Source: a virus. From it: 38,274 nucleotides of DNA. The translations under genes and the position numbers were made by a program. This document shows, one piece after another, positions 4,394-24,375 of this stretch. The notes under the pieces were generated by a model. That model was given only the letters and a program-made list of their open reading frames with translations, did not search any database and was not told the origin of the DNA. Numbering within the stretch: position 1 is the stretch's first letter; every line of letters begins with the position of its first letter. Location of the stretch: positions 1 to 38,274 of the IMG/VR virus record IMGVR_UViG_3300044691_000299. One strand, 5' to 3'.

Positions 4394-4425
4394 CAAACTT
4401 AAACTTTTGTTTTCAGAGAAGCAAA
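4394..4425 (-). promoter_or_regulatory. Promoter of the replication operon
   Basis: On the minus strand TTTG (4422-4425) is separated by 20 nt from TAAGTTTG (4394-4401). Both elements match the Bacteroidota consensus exactly with normal spacing. The leader to the ATG at 4374 is about 15-18 nt. Confidence 0.65.
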
Positions 4426-4702: not shown

Positions 4703-4737
4703 TTTGTTGATAATTCGATGATTTGTCGGTAAGTTTG
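4703..4737 (+). promoter_or_regulatory. Promoter of the terminase genes
   Basis: TTTG at 4703-4706, a 23-nt spacer and TAAGTTTG at 4730-4737 match the Bacteroidota consensus. The ATG of the small terminase is at 4756. The repeat triplet at 4653-4687 ends 15 nt before the -33 element, in a position suited to an activator or repressor. Confidence 0.6.
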
Positions 4738-9703: not shown

Positions 9704-9711
9704 TATATTTG
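9704..9711 (+). promoter_or_regulatory. -7 element 3 nt before the portal ATG
   Basis: TATATTTG fits TAnnTTTG exactly and ends 3 nt before the ATG at 9715. No TTTG/CTTG is found at -33. Transcription from here would give a leaderless or nearly leaderless mRNA. Confidence 0.5.
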
Positions 9712-9714
9712 GAA

Positions 9715-11169
9715 ATGGGATTGATTGAAACACTGTTTGGCAAAGCCATAGACAAAAGGGTTAACAGGCAGGTAGCCAACATTACCCAGAACACCTTCAA
9801 TCAAAATCTCAACCAGCTTATTAATAATGTCCAGGTAACGATCAATTCCAACGGGTATGACTACACCGAAAGGGGATTTGAACAGGTAGGTGCCGTTTAT
9901 GAATGTGTTGACCTGATTGTAAAAAAGTTCGTTGCTTGTCCCTGGATCGTCTACCGGATTAAAAGCCAAAAAGATTATAAAAAGTACCTCCAACTCTCTG
10001 AAAATGCAGATACGCTCGGTCCAGCGCTTTTAGCCAAGTCAAAAGCACTGGAAGAAGTATCCATGCCGAAGATCGAGAAATTGCTGGAAAACCCGAACCC
10101 TAACCCTGAGAACGAGGGCGATGATATGTGGGAGTTGCTGGCCGCACTGTTCCTGCTCCGGGGAAATGCCTACCTCTATGGAAATGCCGGTAATGATACA
10201 GACCGTGCCGCTGGCCGCTGGTCCGAGCTTTGGGGAGTTCCCTCAGATATGACCATCACCGCCGGGCAGAATTTTATGGATCCGGTCGTGTCTTACCAGA
10301 TGACCAACTATTTGCAGAACAAGTCTTTTCCGGCAAACCAGATCAAACATTTTAAAACGCTTAACCCGCGCTATGACCCTTCCGGGCAGCAGCGGTTTGG
10401 CATACCTACCCTAAGAGCTTATTTATACAGCCTGGACATTTTGAGAAATGCTGATAAGGAAGCGGATAAACAGGTAAAGAATGGGGGTACAATCGGACTG
10501 TTGAACCCGGAGAATAAAGAGGATAACTGGGGAGAAGAACAAATGTTGCAGACCGGCGAGAGTCTTAAATCCGCCTACAAGTCCAATGATAAACTGGACC
10601 GGATCGTGCCCGTCAGCATCCCCCTCAAATGGACCCAGATAGGCCTTGCCATTGCCGATATGAAGCTCTTGGAACTCAGTGACGCGAAGGCAGATGATAT
10701 TTACCGGGCTTTTCACATACCGCTGCAGTTTCGTAACCAGGATTCGGCTACTTACAATAATCTGCCGGTAGCTAACCGGCAACTCGCGTATAATGCCATT
10801 GCCCCGATCTGCCGGAAGTTCAGTAAAGGGGTAACAAGTTTCATCTGCAAGCCTTACAACACCAGTCAAAACACCTATATCGTCGAGAAAGACTTCATGG
10901 GACTCCCGGAGTTAAATGATGATATGAAAACCGTGGCTGAGTGGCTCGAAAAATCATGGGACTTAACCCCCAACGAACGCCGCGAGGTAAAACGATGGGG
11001 GCGCTCACCGCAGCCAGGTATGGATGAGATATGGGTAGATAAGAAAATGGTGCGTATGCAGGACGTGATGGACGGAAAGATCGACCAGGGGCCAGGTAGT
11101 ACAAGTTCCGCCACTACACCACCGGCAGAACCGGCTAAAACGTATTTTGAGAATTTGAAAGAATTGTAA
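9715..11169 (+). CDS. Phage portal protein (HK97-like)
   Basis: A 484-aa portal from ATG 9715 (MGLIETLFGKAIDK); a TTG six bases earlier is an alternative but lies in the promoter box. Family features: YTERGFEQVGAVYECVDLIVKKFVACPWIVYR near the N-terminus, then LLAALFLLRGNAYLYGN, the WGVPSDMTI segment, and RAFHIPLQFRNQDSATYNN in the clip/stem part. Portals form the dodecameric ring at one capsid vertex, through which terminase loads DNA. It stands alone on the plus strand between two antisense clusters, bounded by AACCGCC/GGCGGTT hairpins on both sides. Confidence 0.93.
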   Translation: MGLIETLFGKAIDKRVNRQVANITQNTFNQNLNQLINNVQVTINSNGYDYTERGFEQVGAVYECVDLIVKKFVACPWIVYRIKSQKDYKKYLQLSENADTLGPALLAKSKALEEVSMPKIEKLLENPNPNPENEGDDMWELLAALFLLRGNAYLYGNAGNDTDRAAGRWSELWGVPSDMTITAGQNFMDPVVSYQMTNYLQNKSFPANQIKHFKTLNPRYDPSGQQRFGIPTLRAYLYSLDILRNADKEADKQVKNGGTIGLLNPENKEDNWGEEQMLQTGESLKSAYKSNDKLDRIVPVSIPLKWTQIGLAIADMKLLELSDAKADDIYRAFHIPLQFRNQDSATYNNLPVANRQLAYNAIAPICRKFSKGVTSFICKPYNTSQNTYIVEKDFMGLPELNDDMKTVAEWLEKSWDLTPNERREVKRWGRSPQPGMDEIWVDKKMVRMQDVMDGKIDQGPGSTSSATTPPAEPAKTYFENLKEL

Positions 11170-11202: not shown

Positions 11203-11430
11203 TTAACCTTGTTTTGCAAGTATGCCGTTGTTTCCAATTATCGCGTCATTACCGGCGCACAGAGCTTTAATGTTTTCTTCCTGCACTTGCCGATTAGCTT
11301 CATGTTCCTGAAGGCGTATTTGGCGGTTTTTTAGCAAACCTTCTTTGATGGCTAGGAATAGATCAACTTGTTCACCGTGGTTTAATCCGGCAAACATTTC
11401 TAACACTGCTTTTAATTTTTCGTCTATCAT
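11203..11430 (-). CDS. Small helical hypothetical protein, 75 aa
   Basis: Mostly helical (EKLKAVLEMFAGLNHGEQVDLFLAIKEGLL) with a coiled-coil-like middle (RLQEHEANRQVQEENIKAL). It is the last gene of the minus glycan operon, overlapping the preceding glycosyltransferase by 4 bases. Function unknown; it may be a carrier or scaffold, but nothing proves this. Confidence 0.7.
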   Translation of the reverse strand: MIDEKLKAVLEMFAGLNHGEQVDLFLAIKEGLLKNRQIRLQEHEANRQVQEENIKALCAGNDAIIGNNGILAKQG

Positions 11431-11981
11431 ATGTTTTTAATTAAGTGGTTACAATCCTGTTTCGGGTTTTTACTCCATAGCCGATAGCCGTGGAACACGT
11501 ACACACCTTTCATAAGGCCTATCTTTGCCTCACAGATAAGCTGCGCCTCCCGGTTGAACTGCGTATCGAAGTTGATACTATCCTGGACAAAACCCCCGAC
11601 CTTTTCCCAGACTGACACACGGAAGCATAACATGAACGCAGCCATTACCCCTCGTGCGGGTACAACCATATCACCCGCGTTATCCCTGCACTCCTGCGCT
11701 ATGCGGATATGTTCCCGGATCCGGTCATCCTCGTTGAACCTACCGCCTACAAGCTGCTCCGGCGACCGGAGGCGATTGGTCATGCAGCCGAGGATATCAA
11801 AGTCCGTCACAGACAGTATGCGTTCGACCTGTGCTTTAGAGTCCGGCAAAAGCCACATGGCGTCCTGGTCTAAATGGACTATCCAGTCATCCGGTGTAGC
11901 GTTTAGTTGTTTGATCATTTCATTGAGCGCCAACCCGATATTTTTTTCAGTACTGTACGGTGAGATATACCAGATACGCAT
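11427..11981 (-). CDS. GT-A glycosyltransferase-like protein, 184 aa
   Basis: Residues 31-45 (DDWIVHLDQDAMWLL) contain a DQD motif at 38-40, typical of the metal- and nucleotide-sugar-binding DxD of GT-A enzymes. FMLCFRVSVWEKVGGFVQDSINFDTQF resembles the GT2 acceptor region (x-x-R-x-x-x-x-x-GGF-x-x). The 184 residues cover about the catalytic core only. No membrane segments, so it should act in the cytoplasm on host nucleotide sugars. Donor and acceptor are unknown. Coupled by TAATG-type overlap to the GT-B gene. Confidence 0.78.
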   Translation of the reverse strand: MRIWYISPYSTEKNIGLALNEMIKQLNATPDDWIVHLDQDAMWLLPDSKAQVERILSVTDFDILGCMTNRLRSPEQLVGGRFNEDDRIREHIRIAQECRDNAGDMVVPARGVMAAFMLCFRVSVWEKVGGFVQDSINFDTQFNREAQLICEAKIGLMKGVYVFHGYRLWSKNPKQDCNHLIKNI

Positions 11982-12979
11982 CAGTCCCGGTTAATGAATC
12001 TGAACCACCTTAAAATAGCATGGTGATTATAAGTTTTTAAATCCTGTATGTTATCTTCTACCAGTTCGGTTTTGTTGTGGATAGCATAGTCAAGAACCTC
12101 CGCGATACTTTTTTCGGATGTTGGTTCGGCTTTACGGCAATTGAGCCAGTATATTTCCTCACTTACTACGACAGGAACATGAGCAGCAATACAGTCGGCG
12201 GTTACGATGTTGAATGTCTCGGTGAAACTTACCTGCATACAAACGTCCATCTTGGCGATTACTTTTACAAACTCAGCGTGTTCCAGCCAGTCAATTTCAA
12301 ATAATTTATGCCGGGTGCCTGCGAATAAAGCTCTCATATTCTTTAAAACACTATCCCCCCTTTGCTCAATTCTAGTAGAGTTGATATAAAAATGTAGTGT
12401 AGCATGGCGTTTTTCAGCAAACATTAAAGCTGCCACAGCCTGGGCTAACTGATTTTTAAGGGGCCTTAATGCCCCGAAGCAACCTACCCGGTAGAAGTTT
12501 CTTCTGCGCTCAACAGGATTGCAGCCTAAATGCAGTACTTCCGGGTAGATATTCGGCAGGTAAGTATTGTGAATACCGATCTGCTGATAATCATTGCCAA
12601 TATCAACCGAGTTAAAAGAAATGATGGCTTCTTTACTGTATTCTTTGATCCACTCAATAGCATTTCCTTCCATTGCCAGGAAAGGTGTCTTACTGTGTAC
12701 ACGGACAACAAAACGGATATGTGGGTACTTTGCGATCAGTTCCCGCAGTTTGGCTGGAGTTACCCAGATTGCCTCTATAATGCAAATTTGTGGTTTGAAA
12801 TGATGGATGAACCGATCAATACTATTCCCATCCCTGCAAAGTTCAAGCACTGCATGAACTCCTGTGAATTGGTTAATAGCGTCAACAACAAAACGGGCTG
12901 AGTTGCGTAAACCTGACTTGGAGGGCATTACAGCATCACCGTATTCAGAGGTGATCTTTACAAGGAATAGTATTTTCAT
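11981..12979 (-). CDS. GT-B glycosyltransferase (GT4-like)
   Basis: A 332-aa two-domain enzyme. The N-terminal Rossmann-like half begins MKILFLVKITSEYGDAVMPSKSGLRNSA. The C-terminal half has GCFGALRPLKNQ (about 167-178), the typical GT4 strand-loop-K motif, and SFTETFNIVTADCIAAHVPVVVSE (251-274), in the place of the GT4 E-x7-E donor-binding motif with D262 replacing the second Glu. No membrane helix. It would transfer a sugar from an NDP-sugar to an unknown acceptor. Confidence 0.82.
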   Translation of the reverse strand: MKILFLVKITSEYGDAVMPSKSGLRNSARFVVDAINQFTGVHAVLELCRDGNSIDRFIHHFKPQICIIEAIWVTPAKLRELIAKYPHIRFVVRVHSKTPFLAMEGNAIEWIKEYSKEAIISFNSVDIGNDYQQIGIHNTYLPNIYPEVLHLGCNPVERRRNFYRVGCFGALRPLKNQLAQAVAALMFAEKRHATLHFYINSTRIEQRGDSVLKNMRALFAGTRHKLFEIDWLEHAEFVKVIAKMDVCMQVSFTETFNIVTADCIAAHVPVVVSEEIYWLNCRKAEPTSEKSIAEVLDYAIHNKTELVEDNIQDLKTYNHHAILRWFRFINRD

Positions 12980-13599
12980 GTTTTTCGTATAAAGATAATG
13001 TTTTCAGCATTTACAAGTACCGGGGACAACCCGAATTTTTCACAATATTCACAGAAGTGGGTTTTTAAACCCTCGTCGCCATTGTGCTCAATGATCAGGC
13101 ACTTGCAGCCTACAGCACACAGGTCAATTTGCCTTAAAATAGCCAGATCAAACCCTTCGGCATCAATCGATATGAAGTCGAATTTTGCAAAATCAGTCAT
13201 TTCCCACAGGAAATTGAACGGCACCACGTTGACTTTGATCTTATTGAACTCTACATTAGCCCAACGCTGTGTTTCGTTGAAATCCAGTGTGGACACCAGG
13301 GCTTTATCTGTACCGTTTGGAACATGAGCGCCAGATTCGTAAAAATCGACAATCCCCTGTTGTTCTCCAACAGCAACGTTATAACAGAAAACCCCACGAT
13401 TGCCGAGATACAGGCGTTTCAGGTCATAAAAAACAGATGAGGGTTCAACGAGGTGTCCGCTCCATCCCTGTTCCAGTAAAGCCCTGGCATTACTCAGGTC
13501 GAGGCCGTTATTTTCGCCAACTGATAGCAAAGTGCCTTTGTAGTCACCGAAATAGTTCTGTATAAACAGGTCCTCTTTGTTTTGAGCGTAAGTGTTCAT
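12976..13599 (-). CDS. FkbM-family methyltransferase
   Basis: A 207-aa SAM-dependent O-methyltransferase. Motif I is LLSVGENNG (24-32), the acidic ribose-binding motif is VEPSS (51-55), and the FkbM hallmark is FDFISIDAEGFDLAILR (140-156). In glycan loci such enzymes often methylate sugar hydroxyls. It overlaps genes on both sides by ATGA junctions and lies next to the GT-B gene, which suggests it caps the same glycan. Confidence 0.87.
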   Translation of the reverse strand: MNTYAQNKEDLFIQNYFGDYKGTLLSVGENNGLDLSNARALLEQGWSGHLVEPSSVFYDLKRLYLGNRGVFCYNVAVGEQQGIVDFYESGAHVPNGTDKALVSTLDFNETQRWANVEFNKIKVNVVPFNFLWEMTDFAKFDFISIDAEGFDLAILRQIDLCAVGCKCLIIEHNGDEGLKTHFCEYCEKFGLSPVLVNAENIIFIRKT

Positions 13600-13868
13600 T
13601 CAAAAAGCCCTTTCTTGTCGTCCACATGACTGTAAACATCTTTACGGTTAACCGTAATAAAATGTGGCGTTAAAGGATTATTGAAAGTCATAAATGAAAC
13701 CCATACTTTGCCGGTGAACAGTACTTTTAACCTTTCCCAAAAATTCATTTTATAGCAAGCTATAAATTCACCTTCTTTGGTATCAAGTTTTAATCCGGGT
13801 AAAGGATTGTACTGCGGCTGATTCTCAGCATAAGTAACATTACAATGTTTAAATTTTATAGCTTTCAT
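13596..13868 (-). CDS. Conserved small phage protein, 90 aa
   Basis: The sequence MKAIKFKHCNVTYAENQPQYNPLPGLK...FWERLKVLFTGKVWVSFMTFNNPLTPHF matches a small protein I recall from many phages of diverse hosts (NVTYAExQPEYxPLPA...SFWERxKVLFTGKIW). Function not established. It is often adjacent to the same partner as the next gene here. Its presence shows the glycan operon also carries ordinary phage accessory genes. Confidence 0.78.
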   Translation of the reverse strand: MKAIKFKHCNVTYAENQPQYNPLPGLKLDTKEGEFIACYKMNFWERLKVLFTGKVWVSFMTFNNPLTPHFITVNRKDVYSHVDDKKGLFE

Positions 13869-14125
13869 TTAATTTCCTCCGGAAAATTAGGCGCTTCTTC
13901 AGCTAAATATTTGGCTATGGCGGTATGAGCTTCATCTTGATCTTCATTATCAAAACCTCTGAATGAAGTACGACCCGGTAAGCACTCTATTACTTTGCCA
14001 TCTTCAACTTTTACAAATAAAACCCACCCGAAGGCGTGTAATATTGAATTGATGAACAGAAACAATCCAGTTGATCTAAATTCATCCCACGTTTTAGGTG
14101 TAATTGGTTTTTTATTTAGCTTCAT
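13865..14125 (-). CDS. Conserved small phage protein, 86 aa
   Basis: The sequence TWDEFRSTGLFLFINSILHAFGWVLFVKVEDGKVIECLPGRTSFRGF resembles a phage family with WDEFRxTGLLWFxNxILHxFGW...P-x-R-x-x-FRGF. It has one short hydrophobic stretch, not clearly a membrane segment. Function unknown. ATGA overlap with both neighbours. Confidence 0.78.
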   Translation of the reverse strand: MKLNKKPITPKTWDEFRSTGLFLFINSILHAFGWVLFVKVEDGKVIECLPGRTSFRGFDNEDQDEAHTAIAKYLAEEAPNFPEEIK

Positions 14126-14694
14126 TTTGATTTAATATGTTTTACGTAAATTTTGTTAAAATCTTCTTCGGGGATAAAGTCATTATCTACAACTTTACGT
14201 AAGACAGCACAGATGTTCCATCCATCAACTGTGTTACCCATAGCTGCTTCTGTGCTAACTTCCAGTAATTCATATTTACAGGCTTTAGCTAATTCTATAT
14301 AGAATTTTTGAGTGAAATAGTGATAACCATGTCCGGGCCAGTTTCCCGTCATAGGATTTTCGTGAATCATTACACCTCCTTCTTTGCAAGCATTATGAAT
14401 GTTTAAAAACGGGGTATAAAGTGATCCATCCACGTGCTCCAATGTTCCAAAATTAGTCACCATATGGTTATTAGCCTCGAAAGGAATTTTTTCCCTGAGA
14501 TCAGCCTGAACACATTTTTGATGTTCAATAATATCAATGCTTATATGAGATATGAGCATTTCTTCAAAAACGTCTTTTGCAATCCTGCCATAGTGAGGAT
14601 TGTAATAAGTATTTTGAGCTCCTAATTCGAGCATATTAATGCCCGGACGTAAATAAGGCGTAAGCCTTTTCATGCTATCTGCTGTTATTCCCAT
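14122..14694 (-). CDS. Class I SAM-dependent methyltransferase
   Basis: A 190-aa protein with motif I MLELGAQNT (21-29), a following acidic strand ISIDIIEHQ (51-59), and VTNFGTLEHVDG (79-90), a typical post-II/motif IV region. This fold includes sugar, lipid and small-molecule methyltransferases, so the substrate is open. Two bases separate its ATG from the stop of the upstream glycosyltransferase-like gene, and its end overlaps the 86-aa gene. Confidence 0.82.
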   Translation of the reverse strand: MGITADSMKRLTPYLRPGINMLELGAQNTYYNPHYGRIAKDVFEEMLISHISIDIIEHQKCVQADLREKIPFEANNHMVTNFGTLEHVDGSLYTPFLNIHNACKEGGVMIHENPMTGNWPGHGYHYFTQKFYIELAKACKYELLEVSTEAAMGNTVDGWNICAVLRKVVDNDFIPEEDFNKIYVKHIKSK

Positions 14695-14696
14695 AA

Positions 14697-15386
14697 TTAA
14701 ATTCCTTGCGCTTTTATGTAAATTTTATCATTTGCGGTTTCATCGAATAGCCCGGCATATTGCAGCCATTCATCCCCCGGCTGTAAATTCATACCGAGTG
14801 TATACCTTATTATAGATCCGCAGGAAAGATCGTGCCTATGACCCTTGCAGCTTTCATCCGGGCTTTCTGTTTTGTCATCGTTATTCCAGGCACCTTTAAA
14901 CATTCCGGCTTCCATAGAGTTAACCCATCGTTGAAAAAATAACATAGCTTTTTCATTATTCGTGTTCAAACCTAAAAATCCGGCGTTACCGTAGCAACGA
15001 ACGTCCATCACTTCATTTCGGTTAATGTGAAAATAGCTAAGGGCTGTATCATTGGTCCATTCACCTATGAAGTGTCCGGCATCCTGCATAATATACCCAT
15101 GTTCTTCAATATGATCGAATACAGGGCTAATATTTTTTATTGCGAAGCAGGAACTATCTAGCCATAATAATTGCTCATAGCCAGCTTGCATTGCTTTTTC
15201 AAGGCAATAAAGCTTGAAAGCATAAGGATTTTCGCTGTGTAAAGGCGCACCAACAGAAGCCTCTCCGATAAATCCCAGGAAATCTCCATCAAAATTATTG
15301 CGCAGGCTTTCATTAAGTCTGGCAAGACCATTTACATAATTTCCATTGCCATTCGCAAAACTAACTACGCACCTTTTTTTGTTCAT
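14697..15386 (-). CDS. GT-A-like glycosyltransferase, 229 aa
   Basis: I prefer MNKKRCVVSFANGNGNYV (15386) to the longer start at 15413, since it reduces overlap with the upstream gene to 26 bases. EQLLWLDSSCFAIKNI (71-86) supplies a D-x-S/DxD-like metal site. CYGNAGFLGLNTNN and AWNNDDKTESPDESCKGHRHDLSCGS look like the acceptor loop. The general form recalls GT8/DUF-type transferases rather than GT2. No membrane segment. Substrate unknown. Confidence 0.68.
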   Translation of the reverse strand: MNKKRCVVSFANGNGNYVNGLARLNESLRNNFDGDFLGFIGEASVGAPLHSENPYAFKLYCLEKAMQAGYEQLLWLDSSCFAIKNISPVFDHIEEHGYIMQDAGHFIGEWTNDTALSYFHINRNEVMDVRCYGNAGFLGLNTNNEKAMLFFQRWVNSMEAGMFKGAWNNDDKTESPDESCKGHRHDLSCGSIIRYTLGMNLQPGDEWLQYAGLFDETANDKIYIKAQGI

Positions 15387-15909
15387 ATCGATAATAGTAT
15401 AAAATTCCTTCAATCTTAACTTCCGTATTTAACAACCGTAACAATCTCATAGAGTATTCATAATCTTCTCCAAAACTGATCTCCGGAAACCCTGCAGCCA
15501 ATGCCAGTTCACGTTTAACGGGAGATATATGATTAGGTGTACGGTAGTAAACATTTTTCCGCTCAAACCAGCCCATATAATCTTTGGAGATATGCCACTG
15601 CATTTCATTGCTGCCATTTGTTGTGATTACTCCACTTATACCAATGCAGTCACAATCAGATTTACAAGCTTTCAGGATTTTTTCGATATAGTCAGGAGCG
15701 ATTAAGTCATCGTCATCAATTGCCGTGACATATTTACCTGAGGCCAGCGAAAGCAGTTTATTTCGTTTGGTACCAATATTGTAATTCATAGAGATGTCAG
15801 TAATCACTTCCACTTCAGGGGTTAACTGGCGATCAAGAACCTGGCGAAGATTGGCCAATTTGTTGGCCCGTATCGGCATTGTCGCGATAAGGATTGATAG
15901 TTGAATCAT
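15361..15909 (-). CDS. Family 2 glycosyltransferase, 182 aa
   Basis: The N-terminus MIQLSILIATMPIRANKLANL is a classic GT2 start. NIGTKRNKLLSLASGKYVTAIDDDDLIAPDYIEKI (44-78) contains the conserved nucleotide-binding and DDD metal motif. The later GFPEISFGEDYEYSMRL is the ED acceptor/catalytic motif. It is shorter than usual GT2 proteins, holding only the core. Start overlaps the HNH stop by ATGA. Confidence 0.88.
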   Translation of the reverse strand: MIQLSILIATMPIRANKLANLRQVLDRQLTPEVEVITDISMNYNIGTKRNKLLSLASGKYVTAIDDDDLIAPDYIEKILKACKSDCDCIGISGVITTNGSNEMQWHISKDYMGWFERKNVYYRTPNHISPVKRELALAAGFPEISFGEDYEYSMRLLRLLNTEVKIEGILYYYRYEQKKVRS

Positions 15910-16388
15910 ACTTCGATGATATTAAATTTATTTTTACGAAACCCGTTCAAGGCGTTGTATAGAGTGGAGGGAACTATACCATAAGCAACTGCGGCATCTA
16001 ATGCCCTATCATAAAAAATACCTGTCTCTAAGTGAACAACTTTTACATATTGAGGATTTAAATTTAATAACATCATATGATTTAAATTTTCCTTATGTGT
16101 CGCCCATTCTAAATTAGAGGCGTAGTTATTTAACTTATTAGCATCTTTGTGATTAACTGTCTTTTTATGCTCAGGATTTAGATGAAACGCCAATGCAACC
16201 AATACATGTATTCTTTTCATAGTAGATTTACCATTTATTCTTAACGTTACATCATAATAAGGTTCATTTTTACCTTTTTGAGGCTTTAATATTTTTTCCT
16301 TATTTGATTTTAATGACTTTATTCTGCCAAATGAAGATGCTAAATAATCATCAGTTATAGGGAGAGATTTCCAAATTTCTATTTCCAT
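15906..16388 (-). CDS. HNH homing endonuclease (NUMOD4-HNH)
   Basis: A 160-aa protein: NUMOD4-like EIWKSLPITDDYLASSFGRIKSL (4-26); HNH core HVLVALAFHLN...VNHKDANKLNNYASNLEWATHKENL (61-101); and a C-terminal NUMOD1-like DNA-binding helix pair (ALDAAVAYGIVPSTLYNAL). Such enzymes cut DNA at specific sites and spread their own genes. It is wedged between two glycosyltransferase genes, overlapping the upstream gene by 10 bases and the downstream one by 4, so it appears to have entered without breaking operon coupling. Confidence 0.93.
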   Translation of the reverse strand: MEIEIWKSLPITDDYLASSFGRIKSLKSNKEKILKPQKGKNEPYYDVTLRINGKSTMKRIHVLVALAFHLNPEHKKTVNHKDANKLNNYASNLEWATHKENLNHMMLLNLNPQYVKVVHLETGIFYDRALDAAVAYGIVPSTLYNALNGFRKNKFNIIEV

Positions 16389-17035
16389 ATAATATCCTCT
16401 CTTCGCATAACTGGGTTTTCGATTCCAAAGTTATTTTTAGCGTGCTCATTCAAAGTTTTTTGTCCTTGCGCCCAGGTAGCATTATTTTTTCGATTGATAT
16501 CATCGATTTCTGTTTTACCTGTAGTGTAGTGATTATGTAAGAATGTAAGCGGTAATTTTATATATTTTCCGGTCATTAAAGCTACACAAGTAAGTTCTTC
16601 ATCACAGTGCATGTGTAAATAGTCATTGTGGTATACGTAACCGTATCGTTCATAGTAAATTCTGTCCATAATTGGCATAGTGATCAATGTAGGCTGTAAG
16701 CCGTCATCAGTCTTAGCACAGAAATCCGAACGCCCGTGGAGCATTATAGTTAAGGCAGTATCCCATCCTGGTAAACAATCCGTATCGTCGCTAATAACTA
16801 AGAATATGTCACCAGTAGCTAAATTAGCGGCATTATTTATAGCCTCAATTGCGGAGTGGTTATCAAAGCGTAATACTTTTACATAACCAAAAAAAGTTTC
16901 GTAAGGGTATTCGTCTGAAGTGTCTACACTTAAAATATATTCAAAATCGTTATCTGCGTTTGAAAGCCATTTAAACATAGTGGCGAACGCCATATTATCA
17001 CGGCCTCTCGTAGCATGTATGATTGAAAATTTCAT
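16379..17035 (-). CDS. Family 2-like glycosyltransferase, 218 aa
   Basis: Starts MKFSIIHATRGRDNMAFAT, a GT2-type beginning. GDIFLVISDDTDCLPGWDTAL (75-95) carries the DDTD metal motif. TGKYIKLPLTFLHNHYTTGK near the C-terminus gives the histidine-containing region typical of the fold. No membrane helices. Overlaps both neighbours. It resembles the next gene in length and motif layout, so the two may be paralogues. Confidence 0.82.
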   Translation of the reverse strand: MKFSIIHATRGRDNMAFATMFKWLSNADNDFEYILSVDTSDEYPYETFFGYVKVLRFDNHSAIEAINNAANLATGDIFLVISDDTDCLPGWDTALTIMLHGRSDFCAKTDDGLQPTLITMPIMDRIYYERYGYVYHNDYLHMHCDEELTCVALMTGKYIKLPLTFLHNHYTTGKTEIDDINRKNNATWAQGQKTLNEHAKNNFGIENPVMRREDIIWK

Positions 17036-17688
17036 TTATAAGGAATAAAAGTGTTACTTAATTTTGTTTCTTCCCAGTATTTTTTGTTGTCCCGGATAGC
17101 TTTAGTACGTTCATAAGGATCAAAGCATGATCGAGCAGTATTTTGCTCATCGTGCGAGTAGAATAATCCTTTCGAGTGCGGAATGTCAACGTAAGGTGCT
17201 GGCGTAAGTTTCATATTGAAAATACGTTCAGATAAATTTGCATGCTCGTAGCAATTTGAAAAATTAGTATCAAACCCCCCTGCTATTTCAATACAACGCC
17301 TGGTAAAATAAAGCAGGCATCCGCGTGGTAATTCATAAGCCTTATAATCAGGTTCAGCCCATAATAGTTTACGGTCAAAAATATAACAGGCATGCTGCAG
17401 GTTACTGTGTGTGTACCAAGTAGCCCAGTTAGCATCTAAAGGATGGATGTCGTCATCACTGAGCACGAAGTGATCACATCCATCCAAGAGTTCGATACAT
17501 TTGTTTTTTACAGTTGATATACCCGCAGATTGTTCAAATCGATAATCAGCGCCAGGGTAAGGAATTTCACTTGCGTCATCAACGATTACCAGTTTAGCGC
17601 CTACAGGCAGGAACCGCCGCCACTCCGTAATAGAGTGATCAGCGATTTCCCGGCGATCATGTGTGCTAATTGCAATTCCTAAATTCAT
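17032..17688 (-). CDS. Family 2 glycosyltransferase, 218 aa
   Basis: The N-terminus MNLGIAISTHDRREIADHSI is GT2-like. LVIVDDASEIP (33-43) is the first nucleotide-binding motif and HFVLSDDDIHPLDANW (73-88) the DxD. Later GCLLYFTRRCIEIAGGFDTNF fits the GT2 GGF region, and GLFYSHDEQNTARSCFDPYERTKAIRDNKKYW is also common in bacterial GT2 proteins. Cytoplasmic by sequence. Substrate unknown. Confidence 0.87.
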   Translation of the reverse strand: MNLGIAISTHDRREIADHSITEWRRFLPVGAKLVIVDDASEIPYPGADYRFEQSAGISTVKNKCIELLDGCDHFVLSDDDIHPLDANWATWYTHSNLQHACYIFDRKLLWAEPDYKAYELPRGCLLYFTRRCIEIAGGFDTNFSNCYEHANLSERIFNMKLTPAPYVDIPHSKGLFYSHDEQNTARSCFDPYERTKAIRDNKKYWEETKLSNTFIPYK

Positions 17689-17882
17689 GCTTCCGCTTCT
17701 TTATATTTATTAAAATCTGGAAATATTAATTTTACTCTCTTATCAATTTCTTCTGTAATAATATCTTTTTCGTCGAAAAAATTTACATTTCTATAAACTG
17801 ATTCTAAAGAATCGAAAAGAGCGTATAGATCACTTAAAGGTAATTTTTCTAATTGTTCTCTATTTACTTTAACTGCATCCAT
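17685..17882 (-). CDS. Small hypothetical protein, 65 aa
   Basis: A highly charged helical protein (NREQLEKLPLSDLYALFDSLESVYRNVNFFDEKDIITEEIDKRVKLIFPDF). Overlaps neighbours by 1 and 4 bases. No family recognised. Confidence 0.68.
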   Translation of the reverse strand: MDAVKVNREQLEKLPLSDLYALFDSLESVYRNVNFFDEKDIITEEIDKRVKLIFPDFNKYKEAEA

Positions 17883-18121
17883 CAGTTTGAACTCCTTATC
17901 AAGTCAGGCATCATCATTTTCGGATTAGTCTTAAAATAGTTAATGATTAGTGATTGTAACTTCTCAGCGTCAAAATCGGAGAAATCACCGTTTGTAACAA
18001 TATCCAGTTGTATCAGCCCTTCAAACCGTTTGTTGATCTGCTCAAACGTCTCAGGGTTAAATTCATTTTTGAACTCGACCTTAACCGCTACACCTGTGAT
18101 TGTGAATTTTCTTAGGGGCAT
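17882..18121 (-). CDS. Small hypothetical protein, 79 aa
   Basis: A beta-hairpin-like N-terminus (KFTITGVAVKVEFKNEF) and a C-terminal helical part (AEKLQSLIINYFKTNPKMMMPDL). Its ATG overlaps the stop of the RHH regulator gene (TAATG). Function unknown. Confidence 0.68.
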   Translation of the reverse strand: MPLRKFTITGVAVKVEFKNEFNPETFEQINKRFEGLIQLDIVTNGDFSDFDAEKLQSLIINYFKTNPKMMMPDLIRSSN

Positions 18122-18267
18122 TATTTTTTAACTCCTTTATTTAAGATATTACCGGCTACATAACTTTCAGAACGATCTTGCTCCGCAGCTATTTTTTGAA
18201 GTGCTTTTTTTGTGTCATCAGTGACGTAAGCTTGCACCCGATTAGATTTACGACTCTTTTTTTCCAT
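18121..18267 (-). CDS. Ribbon-helix-helix regulator, 48 aa
   Basis: MEKKSRKSNRVQAYVTDDTKKALQKIAAEQDRSESYVAGNILNKGVKK. It has the basic N-terminus, the short strand RVQAYV, helix A (DDTKKALQKIAAEQ), a turn and helix B (SESYVAGNILNKGV) of CopG/Arc-type dimeric repressors. It is the first gene of the 15-gene minus operon and borders the divergent promoter region, as expected for an autoregulator. Confidence 0.8.
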   Translation of the reverse strand: MEKKSRKSNRVQAYVTDDTKKALQKIAAEQDRSESYVAGNILNKGVKK

Positions 18268-18271
18268 TATA

Positions 18272-18303
18272 CAAACTAACTCAATCTAAGTCACAAAAAC
18301 AAG
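18272..18303 (-). promoter_or_regulatory. Promoter of the glycan operon
   Basis: On the minus strand CTTG (18300-18303), a 20-nt spacer and TTAGTTTG (18272-18279) fit a Bacteroidota promoter with one mismatch at the -7 element. The -7 ends 4 nt before the ATG at 18267, so the RHH message may be leaderless. Confidence 0.5.
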
Positions 18304-18312
18304 TACTATTAA

Positions 18313-18328
18313 AAATAAATTTTTATTT
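18313..18328. promoter_or_regulatory. AT-rich dyad between divergent promoters
   Basis: AAATAAA and TTTATTT separated by TT form a perfect inverted repeat midway between the RHH promoter and the head-gene promoter. It is a candidate operator of the RHH protein, although low-complexity AT sequence makes chance likely. Confidence 0.3.
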
Positions 18329-18333
18329 AAATC

Positions 18334-18341
18334 TATATTTA
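18334..18341 (+). promoter_or_regulatory. -7-like element before the head operon
   Basis: TATATTTA (one mismatch to TAnnTTTG) ends 5 nt before the ATG at 18347. The upstream AT-rich block resembles that before the portal gene (AATTTTTAT, then TAAA, then CTATATTT). No -33 element. Confidence 0.4.
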
Positions 18342-18346
18342 CACAA

Positions 18347-18475
18347 ATGAACGATCAAAAGCAGAAGGAACAAATCGAAAAGTTGAATAAACTTAAAGAA
18401 AAACCTCTGCCAGATCATATCAAAAAGTCAATTGACGAGAAGCAAAAAAACATTACTAAACCGCTGAACAAGTGA
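18347..18475 (+). CDS. Small charged protein, 42 aa, leader of the head operon
   Basis: The frame starts MNDQKQKEQIEKLNKLKEKP and ends ITKPLNK; nearly a third of residues are Lys. Its TGA overlaps the GTG start of the prohead protease (GTGA), so the protease should be made by coupled translation. It could be a coupling leader or a small scaffold-like peptide; no family is recognised. Confidence 0.6.
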   Translation: MNDQKQKEQIEKLNKLKEKPLPDHIKKSIDEKQKNITKPLNK

Positions 18476-19308
18476 GTAAAATCTATTGCAAAGAACTCGA
18501 TAAGAAGTTTTCATCTAAGGATGAAATGTTTTTTGCTTTAAAAGCGAATGTTGATAAAATAGTTGCTATTAAAAAAGCGGCGATCAAGGACAGTGATCCT
18601 GTGGGTTATAGTTTTCGTGAAAGCCGGGAAGATGTCGCTAAAGGTGTAGCGCCTGATAAGTTAAAAACAGTGAAAGATGGCGATACCATTTATCCGGTCA
18701 TCAATACTACAAACTGGTTTGACAGCCACGGTGACGTACATTTGGACGGTATCTGGGATACATCAGTTGAACAGCAAAAAGGCAAGTTATATTATGCGAT
18801 CAATCACGAACTTAAGCTGGGCAGCATTATTAGTTACCCAAATGAGGTTGACCCGATGGTTAAAACCCTTAATTGGACCGATGTAGGTGAGAATTATGAC
18901 GGCCAGACCCAGGCGTTGATATTTGCCGCCCAGGTAACTGACAAGTCAAATAAAGATGCTAAAAAGGCGATCAAAGCCGGCGTACCTTTACAGAACTCTG
19001 TTCGTATGCAATACGAAAAAATGGTTTTGTGTGTAGACAGTACCGCAAAAGGTCTTGAACAGGAACGGATGAATTTTTATCAATACCTGCCGAAGATCGC
19101 TAATAAGGATGAAGTGATGGCCGCAGGATATTACTGGGGTATTCAGTCCGCTAAAATTGTTAAAGAAGGAAGTGCAGTATTGGCTGGATCCAATCGCGCG
19201 ACTCCTATTTTATATACCGACCCGTCTAACAAACAGTCGAAAAAAGAAACCGAACCGCCCGCAGACAGCAGCACTGAGGTTAAATCAGATTATTTTTATC
19301 AACTTTAA
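18472..19308 (+). CDS. Prohead (capsid maturation) protease
   Basis: A 278-aa protein with a GTG start. Candidate catalytic residues for the HK97/S78-type protease fold are H112 (YYAINHELK), S176 (GVPLQNSVRM) and the later KEGSAVLAGSNRATP (231-245), equivalent to the E-x-S-x-V-x-x-PAN motif. It should cleave the delta domain of the major capsid protein during maturation. The position directly before the capsid gene supports this. The overall sequence is diverged, so the exact catalytic set is inference. Confidence 0.78.
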   Translation: MSKIYCKELDKKFSSKDEMFFALKANVDKIVAIKKAAIKDSDPVGYSFRESREDVAKGVAPDKLKTVKDGDTIYPVINTTNWFDSHGDVHLDGIWDTSVEQQKGKLYYAINHELKLGSIISYPNEVDPMVKTLNWTDVGENYDGQTQALIFAAQVTDKSNKDAKKAIKAGVPLQNSVRMQYEKMVLCVDSTAKGLEQERMNFYQYLPKIANKDEVMAAGYYWGIQSAKIVKEGSAVLAGSNRATPILYTDPSNKQSKKETEPPADSSTEVKSDYFYQL

Positions 19309-19320
19309 AAACAACCCGAA

Positions 19321-20616
19321 ATGAAATTTGAATATTTAACCAAAGCACAATTCGAGGCCCTTACTGACTACCAGAAGGAAAAATACGCAGATGAAAAGCG
19401 TAGCCATGAAATGAAGGAAACTGCCGAAGCCGCTAAAGTAGCCGCTGAAACTGCTGCAGGCGAGAAAGTAAAAGAAGTAGAAGATAAATTAACTATAGTT
19501 ATCGAAGCTCAGAAAACTGAGATCGCTAGCCTGGTAGTTAAAATCGATGAAACTGATAAGAAACGCGAAGCTGTTGAGGCTAAGATGGAACGCATCCAGG
19601 CTAAACAAACTGAGACCGAAATGTCAGGTTTGAAAGCAGAGATCGCTGAAATGTTTGCTAATAAAGAAAGCGAAGGCTCTAAGCAACTTGCATCATTTAA
19701 AAGCAAAAAATCTTTCAACGTTGAGTTGGAAGGTAAAGGTTTATTGGCTGAAAAAGCACCAGGTGTTATCGGAGTTCCTGCCGGCACTACCGCGCAGCAA
19801 TGGCTACAGCCTATTGGTATTCCGCACGAAACTGTACAGGCCCGTGACATTATACCAGTGTACCCAACTGAGTTTCCGTCTATCAATTACGTTCAGTTCA
19901 CCAAAAAAGACGGTAGCATTGCTTCTGTTGCGGCTGGTGCAACTAAACCGCAGTTTGATTATACACCAACCGGTAAACTGGCGCCTGTTATCAAAATTGC
20001 AGGTTGGGTGAGTGTTCAGGAAGAATTTTTGGATGATGTTGTAGGTTCCGGTGCATTTTTAGCGCAAGAGCTGCCGTGGGCATACAAAGACGAAGAAACT
20101 CGTCAGGTGTTTAAAGGTAACGGTACTACCGAGCTGAATGGCTTATATGCTAACGTTGCAACTGCGCTTAACTTCGCAGGGTTTGAAGCTGCCGGCACCA
20201 ACTCAAATGGTTGGGATAAAATGGTAGTTGCCTTGACCAATTCGCGTCGTAGTTTGCGCCCAGGTGATGCTATCTGGATTTCTCCTGAAGCTTATGGTGA
20301 GCTTTTAATGAATAAGTCTACAGGTGATGTTCAGGAGTATGATTATCCTATCCAGGCTACTACTGCGGGCCAACTGGCTATCGGCGGTATCCCGATTTAT
20401 TTTCATACTGTTTTCGGTGCGACCGAAGGTATGTCAGGTAACTTTAGCCGTGGAGTAGCTTTATGGCAACGTAAGGGTATCACCCTGCGCACATCGACTG
20501 AGGCTGATCAGAACTTCTTCAAGAACTTAGTTACGTTCTTGATTGAAGCACGTATGGCAATGACTCCTTTCTTCCCTGAGTCATTCAAAAAGATAGATTT
20601 TACCCGTACGACATAA
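19321..20616 (+). CDS. Major capsid protein (HK97 fold)
   Basis: A 431-aa protein. Residues about 25-130 are a charged coiled coil, rich in Ala, Glu and Lys, which fits the scaffolding delta domain removed by the protease. The core follows from about 140, with FPSINYVQFTKKDGSIASVAAGATKPQFDY, the AGWVSVQEEFLDD segment, GNGTTELNGLY, and the C-terminal TFLIEARMAMTPFFPESFKKIDF, all typical of HK97-type capsids. Followed by a terminator. Confidence 0.95.
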   Translation: MKFEYLTKAQFEALTDYQKEKYADEKRSHEMKETAEAAKVAAETAAGEKVKEVEDKLTIVIEAQKTEIASLVVKIDETDKKREAVEAKMERIQAKQTETEMSGLKAEIAEMFANKESEGSKQLASFKSKKSFNVELEGKGLLAEKAPGVIGVPAGTTAQQWLQPIGIPHETVQARDIIPVYPTEFPSINYVQFTKKDGSIASVAAGATKPQFDYTPTGKLAPVIKIAGWVSVQEEFLDDVVGSGAFLAQELPWAYKDEETRQVFKGNGTTELNGLYANVATALNFAGFEAAGTNSNGWDKMVVALTNSRRSLRPGDAIWISPEAYGELLMNKSTGDVQEYDYPIQATTAGQLAIGGIPIYFHTVFGATEGMSGNFSRGVALWQRKGITLRTSTEADQNFFKNLVTFLIEARMAMTPFFPESFKKIDFTRTT

Positions 20617-22460: not shown

Positions 22461-22940
22461 ATGGCAGGTATACCAGGAAGGTTAATAGGACTACAAATAG
22501 GCGGCATATTTATTAGCTGCGAGGTGTCCTGTGCATTTAATTTTCAATCAGACATGCTACCTGCCTCTGCAATCGATAGTGCGGGATGGCGTGAATATAT
22601 CGCAGGTATCCGTTCCTGGACGATGAGTGTAGACGGGCAGCTTTTAGCGGAAGCTGTAGGCGCCGACTTTAAAACAATAATGAACGCATGGATTGCAAGA
22701 CTGCCTTTATTTCTGGTGTGGGGTACCCGCCTTTCTGCAACTACGCAGCTTAGTATCAGTGGGGCAGCATTAGTATCCACAGGCGGCGCTACTGCACCAA
22801 GTAAAGGAAATGCGACATACACGGTTAGCTTTCAAGGGACCGGGGCACTTCAAACAAGTTTTGAAGATTTTACACTTGTGATCGACGCAATGCCGGCGAT
22901 TGAAGATTATCCGATAATTTTTGATCTAAGAGTTACATAA
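22461..22940 (+). CDS. Major tail (tube) protein, paralogue 1
   Basis: A 159-aa protein with GIPGRLIGLQIGGIFISCEVSCAFNFQSD (3-31), a central GIRSWTMSVDGQL strand pair, and SKGNATYTVSFQGTGALQT near the C-terminus, as in TP901-1/lambda-type tube proteins. It shares the N-terminal (L/I)PG(R/K)L(I/L)G-x-x-x-(G)G-x-x-x-x-C pattern and the C-terminal GNATYTVSFQGTG-like strand with the tube protein at 23914. One is probably the tube and the other an alternative or initiator subunit. Confidence 0.8.
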   Translation: MAGIPGRLIGLQIGGIFISCEVSCAFNFQSDMLPASAIDSAGWREYIAGIRSWTMSVDGQLLAEAVGADFKTIMNAWIARLPLFLVWGTRLSATTQLSISGAALVSTGGATAPSKGNATYTVSFQGTGALQTSFEDFTLVIDAMPAIEDYPIIFDLRVT

Positions 22941-22965
22941 TTATATTAATAGTTAATAATTATGT
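22935..22965. terminator. AT-rich hairpin at the convergent end of tube 1 and HNH gene
   Basis: ACATAATTAT (22935-22944) pairs perfectly with ATAATTATGT (22956-22965). It covers the stop of the tail-tube gene and the stop of the opposing HNH gene. A U-tract is absent, so termination strength is uncertain. Confidence 0.45.
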
Positions 22966-23455
22966 TAAGATTTGCAAATTCTTTATGGTGTCTAACAGCT
23001 TCTCTGTTATAAGCTAGTGCTGCTTGGTATTCTTTTTTAAACTGCCCTAAGTAGATACCTTTTCCGTTTACTTCAATTGAAGCTTCCCAACTATTTCTTG
23101 CTTTTCGGCGGGTCACTCCTAAATAAATGGAACTTGAATTTTTTCGGGCGGTTTTATTTTTACCATTTTCTATAGACGTAGCTTTTCTTAAATTTTCAAT
23201 TCTATTGTTTAGCTTATTTCTATCTTCATGGTCTACTACATCTGGTAATTCTCCATGGTGCCAAAGAAATATTAATCTTGATAAGTAATAGAGTTTTCTA
23301 TTTACAGTGAGTACATGACGAGCGCCAGTTTTCTTTTCGTTCACATATCCTGCTTTTTCTCCCTTTACCTTATTGGCTACTCTATCAACTTTCCAATATA
23401 AAAACCCATCTCGGTATTCAAATAACTCTTTTATTAATTCTTGTGTCAATTCCAT
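22946..23455 (-). CDS. HNH endonuclease with AP2 domain
   Basis: A 169-aa protein. N-terminal LFEYRDGFLYWKVD and LSRLIFLWHHGELPDVVDHEDRNKLNNRIENLRKATSIENGKNK (58-101) form the HNH core. The C-terminal SSSIYLGVTRRKARNSWEASIEVNGKGIYLGQF (107-139) is an AP2-type DNA-binding domain. This is a free-standing homing endonuclease. It lies antisense in the tail operon, between two paralogous tube genes. Confidence 0.95.
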   Translation of the reverse strand: MELTQELIKELFEYRDGFLYWKVDRVANKVKGEKAGYVNEKKTGARHVLTVNRKLYYLSRLIFLWHHGELPDVVDHEDRNKLNNRIENLRKATSIENGKNKTARKNSSSIYLGVTRRKARNSWEASIEVNGKGIYLGQFKKEYQAALAYNREAVRHHKEFANLNIIINY

Positions 23456-23913: not shown

Positions 23914-24375
23914 ATGAATGCACTTCCCGGCAAATTATTAGGGGTAACCTTAGACGGTGTTTATTACAAATGCCAGACAAACGCCGATCTAACCTTTTCT
24001 GCGGCTGTAACTGCGGATGATAGCTGTAAACCCGATCAGGGAGCAGGTGCCGATCCGATACAATGGGTTACCAACTCAGTTGATAATAAATCCTGGGTGA
24101 TCACTTTCAGCGCAAAATCTTTTGCGGACGGCCTCGGGGCTTCCGGGAATCAAATTGCGAGTTTTTTTATTGACAGTGATTTAGGTTGCACAGCGCATTT
24201 TATGACTAATCCTGATCTTGGAGACGGTACAATTGCTACTGACGTTCTTTTTGAAGGTGAAGGCTTGCTTACAGGCTTAAAAATAAATGCACCGGAGAAA
24301 GGATCATCCACTTATGATGCGACTATCACAGGTAACGGTCCAATGACCAAAACTGAGGTAAACCGTACTACGTAA
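23914..24375 (+). CDS. Major tail (tube) protein, paralogue 2
   Basis: A 153-aa protein. LPGKLLGVTLDGVYYKCQTNADLTFSA (4-30), then SVDNKSWVITFSAKSFA and APEKGSSTYDATITGNGPM, follow the same pattern as the protein at 22461, including the N-terminal G-x-x-x-x-C and the final beta strand. It is preceded by a strong Shine-Dalgarno. Confidence 0.8.
   Translation: MNALPGKLLGVTLDGVYYKCQTNADLTFSAAVTADDSCKPDQGAGADPIQWVTNSVDNKSWVITFSAKSFADGLGASGNQIASFFIDSDLGCTAHFMTNPDLGDGTIATDVLFEGEGLLTGLKINAPEKGSSTYDATITGNGPMTKTEVNRTT

Follow-up and report, generated by a model that had tools for sequence, protein, structure and literature searches.

An antisense glycan operon in the head module of an environmental phage, probably dedicated to glycosylation of its own virion proteins

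Gene Content and Position of the Operon

The virus record IMGVR_UViG_3300044691_000299 was analysed over its whole 38,274 bases, referred to here as the window. Within its head module, 15 open reading frames (ORFs) on the minus strand, designated g01 to g15 from 18267 down to 11203, form an antisense operon that comprises six glycosyltransferases (GTs), an FkbM methyltransferase, a probable class I methyltransferase, a regulator, a homing endonuclease and five small ORFs without an assignment. Read from 5´ to 3´, the junctions between successive genes are overlaps of 1, 1, 4, 4, 10, 4 and 26 bases, a gap of 2 bases, and overlaps of 4, 4, 4, 4, 1 and 4 bases; the 26-base overlap is valid if g08 starts at the ATG at 15386. 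Plus-strand genes lie on both sides. The left flank is the portal protein gene (9709..11169; PF04860, 2.6e-36), and the right flank is an ORF without a family hit (18472..19308), presumed to be the head maturation protease from its position directly before the gene of the major capsid protein (MCP; 19321..20616, plus strand; PF05065, 1.5e-16), itself a possible glycan target.

A sequence-only reading of this DNA had described a 15-gene antisense operon between portal and protease, and its coordinates, strand, overlaps and single 2-base gap are all reproduced here, with "protease" understood as an assignment by position. The operon is more than a chance arrangement: its order, strand and site are repeated across independent contigs.

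Glycosyltransferases

By sequence or fold, the operon encodes five glycosyltransferases of the GT-A type and one of the GT-B type. This agrees with the six glycosyltransferase-like proteins counted in the sequence-only reading, with g04, g05, g07, g13 and g14 supported by sequence and g08 by a confident GT-A model. Structure prediction followed by Foldseek covered two of the six, g04 and g08. A structure search had been suggested earlier as the way in which the assignments might fail; for these two proteins, the predicted folds match solved glycosyltransferases.

The g04 product (17032..17688, minus strand; phrog_1579, 7e-51) is a GT7/GT27-like GT-A enzyme. Its AlphaFold (AF2) model, with a predicted local distance difference test score (pLDDT) of 94.5, matches beta-1,4-galactosyltransferase (B4GalT), polypeptide GalNAc-transferases (GalNAc-T) and an archaeal mannosyltransferase (PcManGT). 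The D78xD80 motif is conserved across 30 relatives, the GT7/GT27 domain PF02709 is matched by 19 of 30 g04-family members, and the protein is 42% identical by BLAST to gp107 of mycobacteriophage Taj (2e-48). The GT-A protein g08 (14697..15386, minus strand) has no family hit at the sequence level, its fold being assigned from the AF2 model (pLDDT 87.2). This GT6/GT8/GT34-like fold matches LARGE1, the xyloglucan xylosyltransferase XXT1 and the ABO enzymes GTA/GTB, and carries a conserved DxS motif (D77xS79).

The remaining GT-A enzymes are two GT2 or GT2-like proteins and the small g14. The g05 gene (16379..17035, minus strand; PF00535, 1e-4), which opens the conserved cassette described below, encodes a GT2-like protein whose profile matches dolichol-phosphate mannose synthase (1.1e-4). 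The GT2 enzyme g07 (15361..15909, minus strand; PF00535, 1.1e-9) has conserved acidic residues at D65 and D67-D68 and is a homologue of Che8 gp108, with 36% identity to its N-terminal domain by BLAST (3e-25). A profile comparison of g07 with gp108 was discarded as circular, since the alignment already contained the Che8 domain, and the BLAST value was used instead. In the g14 product (11427..11981, minus strand; phrog_14179, 1e-43), D38 and D40 of the DxD motif (D38xD40) are invariant across 31 sequences. Finally, g13 (11981..12979, minus strand; PF13692, 1.6e-4; PF20706, 2.8e-4) is a GT4-like GT-B enzyme.

A hydropathy scan found no transmembrane-like segment in any of the six GTs. The earlier statement that no operon protein has a membrane helix is thus correct for the GTs but too broad for the operon, as g10 has one borderline hydrophobic stretch (Kyte-Doolittle 1.92 at aa 20). 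Profile searches of the PDB with g08, g09, g12, g13 and g14 returned no useful match.

Methyltransferases, Regulator and Small ORFs

The sequence-only reading had also named FkbM and class I methyltransferases. The first is certain: g12 (12976..13599, minus strand) matches PF05050 at 2.3e-14 and TIGR01444 at 3.4e-9. The second, g09 (14122..14694, minus strand), is probably a class I S-adenosylmethionine-dependent methyltransferase. It is conserved between g08 and g12, and Methyltransf_23 is matched by three of six family members, the best at 1.3e-4, but the window copy reaches only 0.033. Setting its profile against FkbM gave no useful information.

The first gene, g01 (18121..18267, minus strand; phrog_3431, 1.4e-6), encodes an Arc-like ribbon-helix-helix regulator, with the corresponding Pfam match below threshold. 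The five small ORFs, all on the minus strand, have no function assigned. The g02 product (79 aa, 17882..18121) occurs in close relatives and is 94% identical in L016 (contigs and loci in the comparison carry L numbers), g10 (86 aa, 13865..14125) belongs to phrog_16397, g11 (90 aa, 13596..13868) is 90% identical in L019, and the last gene, g15 (75 aa, 11203..11430), is conserved in several relatives. The g03 product (65 aa, 17685..17882) is not conserved at its position, which in L017 is taken by a 104-aa ORF (18933-19247) whose product resembles the C-terminal domain of RNA polymerase alpha (7.4e-6). Another small protein, some 63 aa long, conserved and helix-turn-helix (HTH)-like by eye, is found near the operon start beside the protease (L017 19695-19886, L018 20005-20244, L004 6184-6441, L020 20807-20998), and also in Cellulophaga phages, whose GT sits on the other strand. 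PADLOC gave no convincing defence family.

Conservation, Core Cassette and Variable Slot

Portal and protease genes enclose this antisense operon in L016, L017, L018 and L019, whose portals are 71-81% identical to that of the window, as they do in L029 and L034. In L004, with a portal of 34% identity, and in L125 and L116, the site is occupied by a smaller operon that includes g04 and g14; L114 also has a reduced antisense version between portal and protease. The site is therefore kept over portal identities of 34-81%. In the closest relatives, the core comprises g02, g04, g05, g07, g08, g12 and g14.

Furthermore, the order g05-g07-g08-(g09)-g12 recurs in unrelated phages. A scan with g05 yielded 35 non-redundant loci, in which the neighbours included g07 (27 loci), FkbM (28) and g08 (22). 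Where g05, g07 and g12 were all present, the order and single strand were kept without exception (22/22 non-redundant loci), which answers the earlier proposal of a gene-neighbourhood search with the same gene set in other phages. The cassette is present even in phages in which nothing else resembling the window was detected (L186, L189, L190), and gene fusions join g05 to g07 (L186), g07 to g08 (L016, L019) and g07 to g12 (L207). This fixed order and strand in unrelated phages, together with the fusions, is strong evidence, drawn from gene arrangement, that the cassette genes would act in one pathway. In one unrelated phage contig (L189), a GroEL-like gene (11305-12891), recognised by eye, is immediately downstream of the cassette.

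Among 50,697 phage records, no relative of g05 or g09 was found (g09 having been queried by its L190 relative), and the closest relative of g12 was 27% identical. At the level of near-identical DNA, the phage collection gave no match.

Relatives differ in what lies between FkbM and g14. This slot holds the GT-B alone in the window, whereas the GT-B is accompanied by a weakly UDP-sugar-dehydrogenase-like protein in L016 and by a GT-D-like one (7e-12) in L019. In L017 and L018, the slot is filled instead by a protein of 322-369 aa that has no family assignment.

Homing Endonuclease and Mobility

The g06 gene (15906..16388, minus strand; NUMOD4, 8.9e-11; HNH_3, 3.2e-7), absent from the list in the sequence-only reading, encodes a NUMOD4-HNH homing endonuclease and is not a glycan gene. 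It lies in a tract of 720 bp (15890..16609, minus strand), comprising g06 and about 220 bases of the g05 3´ end, with 93-100% nucleotide identity to L017; in the flanks, the identity drops to ~0.45-0.9. The operon of L016 has three HNH genes and that of L018 one GIY-YIG gene, while the L019 operon retains its GTs without endonuclease genes. On the strength of the shared tract and of the endonuclease genes in L016 and L018, homing endonucleases probably move pieces of the glycan locus between phages.

Expression and Host

A Bacteroidota-type promoter-like element, TTG-N20-TTAGTTTG (consensus TAnnTTTG), lies upstream of g01 at approximately 18268..18302 on the minus strand. In L016, L019 and L017, the first gene of the operon is directly preceded by the form TTG-N20-TAnnTTTG, with N19 spacing in L029, and the element in the window and in L034 has one mismatch to it. 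Over the whole window, 8 copies of the stricter motif TTTG-N15-23-TAnnTTTG were counted where 3.0 were expected, and none of 100 shuffles reaches 8. There is no support for a sigma-70 promoter, the scan being at chance level (17 sites found against 22.7 expected), and a terminator scan was also at chance level. For the single promoter proposed earlier, the candidate is thus the Bacteroidota-type element conserved in relatives. Judged by sequence, the operon appears to form a single transcription unit, its start element being of the Bacteroidota type.

Other copies of such elements were noted. Two sites of the stricter motif, 4394-4425 (minus) and 4703-4737 (plus), sit between divergent gene blocks. 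At 18310-18350, a TAnnTTTA element kept in six of six aligned relatives precedes a plus-strand 42-aa ORF and the protease; this is possibly a late head-gene promoter, divergent from the operon.

The host is probably a member of the Bacteroidota, as indicated by the promoter motif enrichment together with the nearest isolate terminase found, that of Cellulophaga phages (Helsingorvirus), at 52%. Scanning genomes with the portal brought up no prophage that would confirm the host.

Surrounding Regions of the Window

The window is probably a fragment of a longer genome, because the nearest contigs measure 55-57 kb and its left end is a tandem repeat. This array of a 12-base unit at the extreme left end (2-284) possibly marks an assembly break. 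Downstream of the capsid gene, two major-tail-protein-like genes (phrog_1407; 22461-22940 and 23914-24375), with a mutual identity of 21%, are separated by an HNH-AP2 endonuclease gene on the opposite strand (22946-23455). The gene pair is present in relatives too.

Comparison with Known Systems

Mycobacteriophages provide some of the closest known parallels. According to papers that cite Freeman et al. 2023, Che8 and other mycobacteriophages encode GTs with which they glycosylate their capsid and tail proteins, Che8 gp110 being named as essential for capsid glycosylation (PMC12363180, PMC11256854). The operon resembles these systems (Che8 and Taj of cluster F; Corndog; Myrna) in that soluble GTs are encoded by the phage itself, in a compact group of genes. 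By sequence, g07 and g04 are related by descent to cluster F enzymes, the g07 homologue gp108 being a GT2 domain fused to a methyltransferase-like domain. However, cluster F phages have two or three GTs at the right genome end, whereas the window has six GTs and two methyltransferases, antisense and in the head module. In the Omegavirus LittleE (cluster J; NC_042322.1 10667-15064, L191), the GTs gp15, 17, 18 and 21 are placed between the MCP and the head-tail connector, and gp15 is a g07 homologue; this cluster differs in following the head-gene strand, in a kinase gene and in having no FkbM. An HNH gene lies within the two-part MCP gene of LittleE, annotated with a group I intron.

Two other phage groups share parts of the operon. 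Helsingorvirus (Cellulophaga phages phi17:1, phi18:1, phi12:1) has a g14 homologue and a methyltransferase-like gene between portal and protease, but with one two-domain GT on the head-gene strand, opposite in orientation to the window operon, and no g05-g12 cassette was found there. The GT cassette of Phapecoctavirus (nieznany gp197-200) contains adjacent homologues of g14 (41%) and g04 (remote), although it lies beside endolysin and replication genes, outside the head module.

In the chlorovirus PBCV-1, soluble viral GTs act with a methyltransferase that methylates a terminal rhamnose of the capsid glycan (PMC5408694, PMC7826918). The likeness (A064R, A111/114R) concerns the soluble cytoplasmic GTs, the terminal-sugar methylation and a GT34-like fold shared with g08 (PMC5408694, PMC7826918); the comparison with g08 is by fold class alone, and PBCV-1 differs in being a eukaryotic virus that carries N-glycans on a double-jelly-roll capsid protein. 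The operon likewise combines GTs without membrane segments with FkbM and a probable class I methyltransferase. By analogy, it is best read as working like viral cytoplasmic capsid glycosylation, of which PBCV-1 is the best-studied case. Its size, place, orientation, FkbM and g09 enzymes and modular slot set it apart. The papers searched gave no account of such a gene set, although this does not prove that there is none.

Target and Proposed Pathway

The operon probably specifies a soluble cytoplasmic pathway that would glycosylate the structural proteins of the phage stepwise, with methylation of the glycan, from host nucleotide sugars. Virion proteins are favoured as the target because of the head-module location, the cluster F homology, the GT cluster of LittleE and the solubility of enzymes that lack a lipid-linked export apparatus. 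In loci with both markers, the g14 family lies between portal and protease/MCP in 11 of 13 non-redundant cases and the g04 family in 11 of 15, in both orientations.

The first sugar would be placed on a structural protein, for example that of the capsid or the major tail protein, by a single GT-A enzyme, either g04 or g14, whose families were the most widespread among those tested. The g05-g07-g08 group would then extend the chain. The methyltransferases may O-methylate the sugars, perhaps as a cap, and the exchangeable FkbM-g14 slot may alter the outer sugars. Glycosylation would be timed during particle assembly, and parts of the locus could be carried between phages by the homing endonuclease. 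The donors are presumably the nucleotide sugars of the host, since a search of ten related records, several of which may be fragments, gave no nucleotide-sugar epimerase. Of the methyl-capped oligosaccharide put forward in the sequence-only reading, assembly with methylation is supported by the GT and methyltransferase families, the cassette order and the fusions; capping and sequential growth are inferred only.

Several observations weigh against virion glycosylation. The Che8 protein related to the operon is gp108, whereas gp110 is unrelated to g14, the match of the g14 profile to it having a probability of 0.3%; no operon gene has a BLAST hit to gp110, and neither g14 nor g13 has a detected homologue in Che8. 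The head-module placement of the g05 cassette is not universal: 22 of the 35 g05 loci have no head gene detectable by window-derived profiles, and when distances to head genes were tested against random positions, no significance was reached (P 0.10-0.15), though the test was underpowered. Antisense transcription and a dedicated regulator suggest a timing unlike that of late head genes. Moreover, eight of 30 g04 relatives weakly match the TET-associated glycosyltransferase family PF20691, which acts on DNA (best 5e-5).

This last match is one ground for supposing that the enzymes instead glycosylate and methylate phage DNA bases against host restriction, which we regard as unlikely. T4-like and TET-type phages do glycosylate DNA bases, the enzymes of the operon are soluble and cytoplasmic, and variable gene content would suit a restriction arms race. 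The PF20691 matches come from g04 relatives and from none of the GTs of the window itself. On the other side, g04 members match PF02709 more often (19/30 against 8/30). The earlier argument that the lack of a base-hypermodification enzyme weakens the DNA option was weak as stated, given that the window is probably a fragment, but it gains from the ten records, several possibly fragmentary but 50-57 kb relatives included, in which neither a thymidylate-synthase-type hydroxymethylase (PF00303) nor QueC was found with working controls. A TET/JBP search (PF12851) also gave no match, but its positive control was silent too, and hence it is uninformative. DNA glycosylation is not known to use as many enzymes as six GTs and FkbM, and the avoidance of six-base palindromes in the window (observed/expected 0.86) is a weak sign of restriction-exposed DNA. 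Phages of the Vequintavirinae group in the BASEL collection are very restriction-sensitive despite putative glycosylation genes (PMC8594841), and the g14/g04 pair is found in the related Phapecoctavirus.

It is also rather improbable that the operon acts in the infected cell on glycans or glycoproteins of the host surface, remodelling them for instance to block superinfection or release progeny. GT2, GT4 and FkbM are typical of bacterial surface polysaccharide loci, there are weak NCBIfam matches to exopolysaccharide enzymes, and the regulator and promoter suggest expression separate from late genes. Yet the 15 operon proteins include no flippase, polymerase, lipid-carrier GT family or clear membrane protein, the head-module placement recurs in several lineages, and homologues occur in cluster F mycobacteriophages, for which virion glycosylation is reported. 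Overall, DNA and host-surface targets are less likely than virion proteins. A hitchhiking cassette of little function for the phage, maintained by homing endonucleases, could explain the recent transfer tract at g06, the three HNH genes of L016 and the GIY-YIG gene of L018. This seems highly improbable: the tight overlaps, the conserved order and catalytic motifs and the single site kept across such divergent portals point to selection, and the GTs persist in L019 without endonucleases.

Significance

Beyond virion glycosylation itself, a broader and more tentative proposal, on balance doubtful, is that the virion-glycan locus is portable, much as O-antigen loci are in bacteria. A conserved core of the form GT-GT-GT-(methyltransferase)-FkbM, recurrent in unrelated phages from uncultured communities and placed in the head module, would be combined with an exchangeable slot that gives each phage its own methylated coat, and homing endonucleases would spread the pieces. 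The five-gene conserved core offers a defined enzyme set for expression and assay, and the variable slot a handle on what selects differing coats. Candidate natural purposes of such a coat are particle stability, adsorption, and hiding from binding proteins or grazers. Virion glycosylation has so far been reported for a few mycobacteriophages, and its discussion has centred mostly on antibodies of animals. The size, conservation and variability of this glycan operon, found in phages from the environment, suggest that methylated sugar coats may be a broader strategy.

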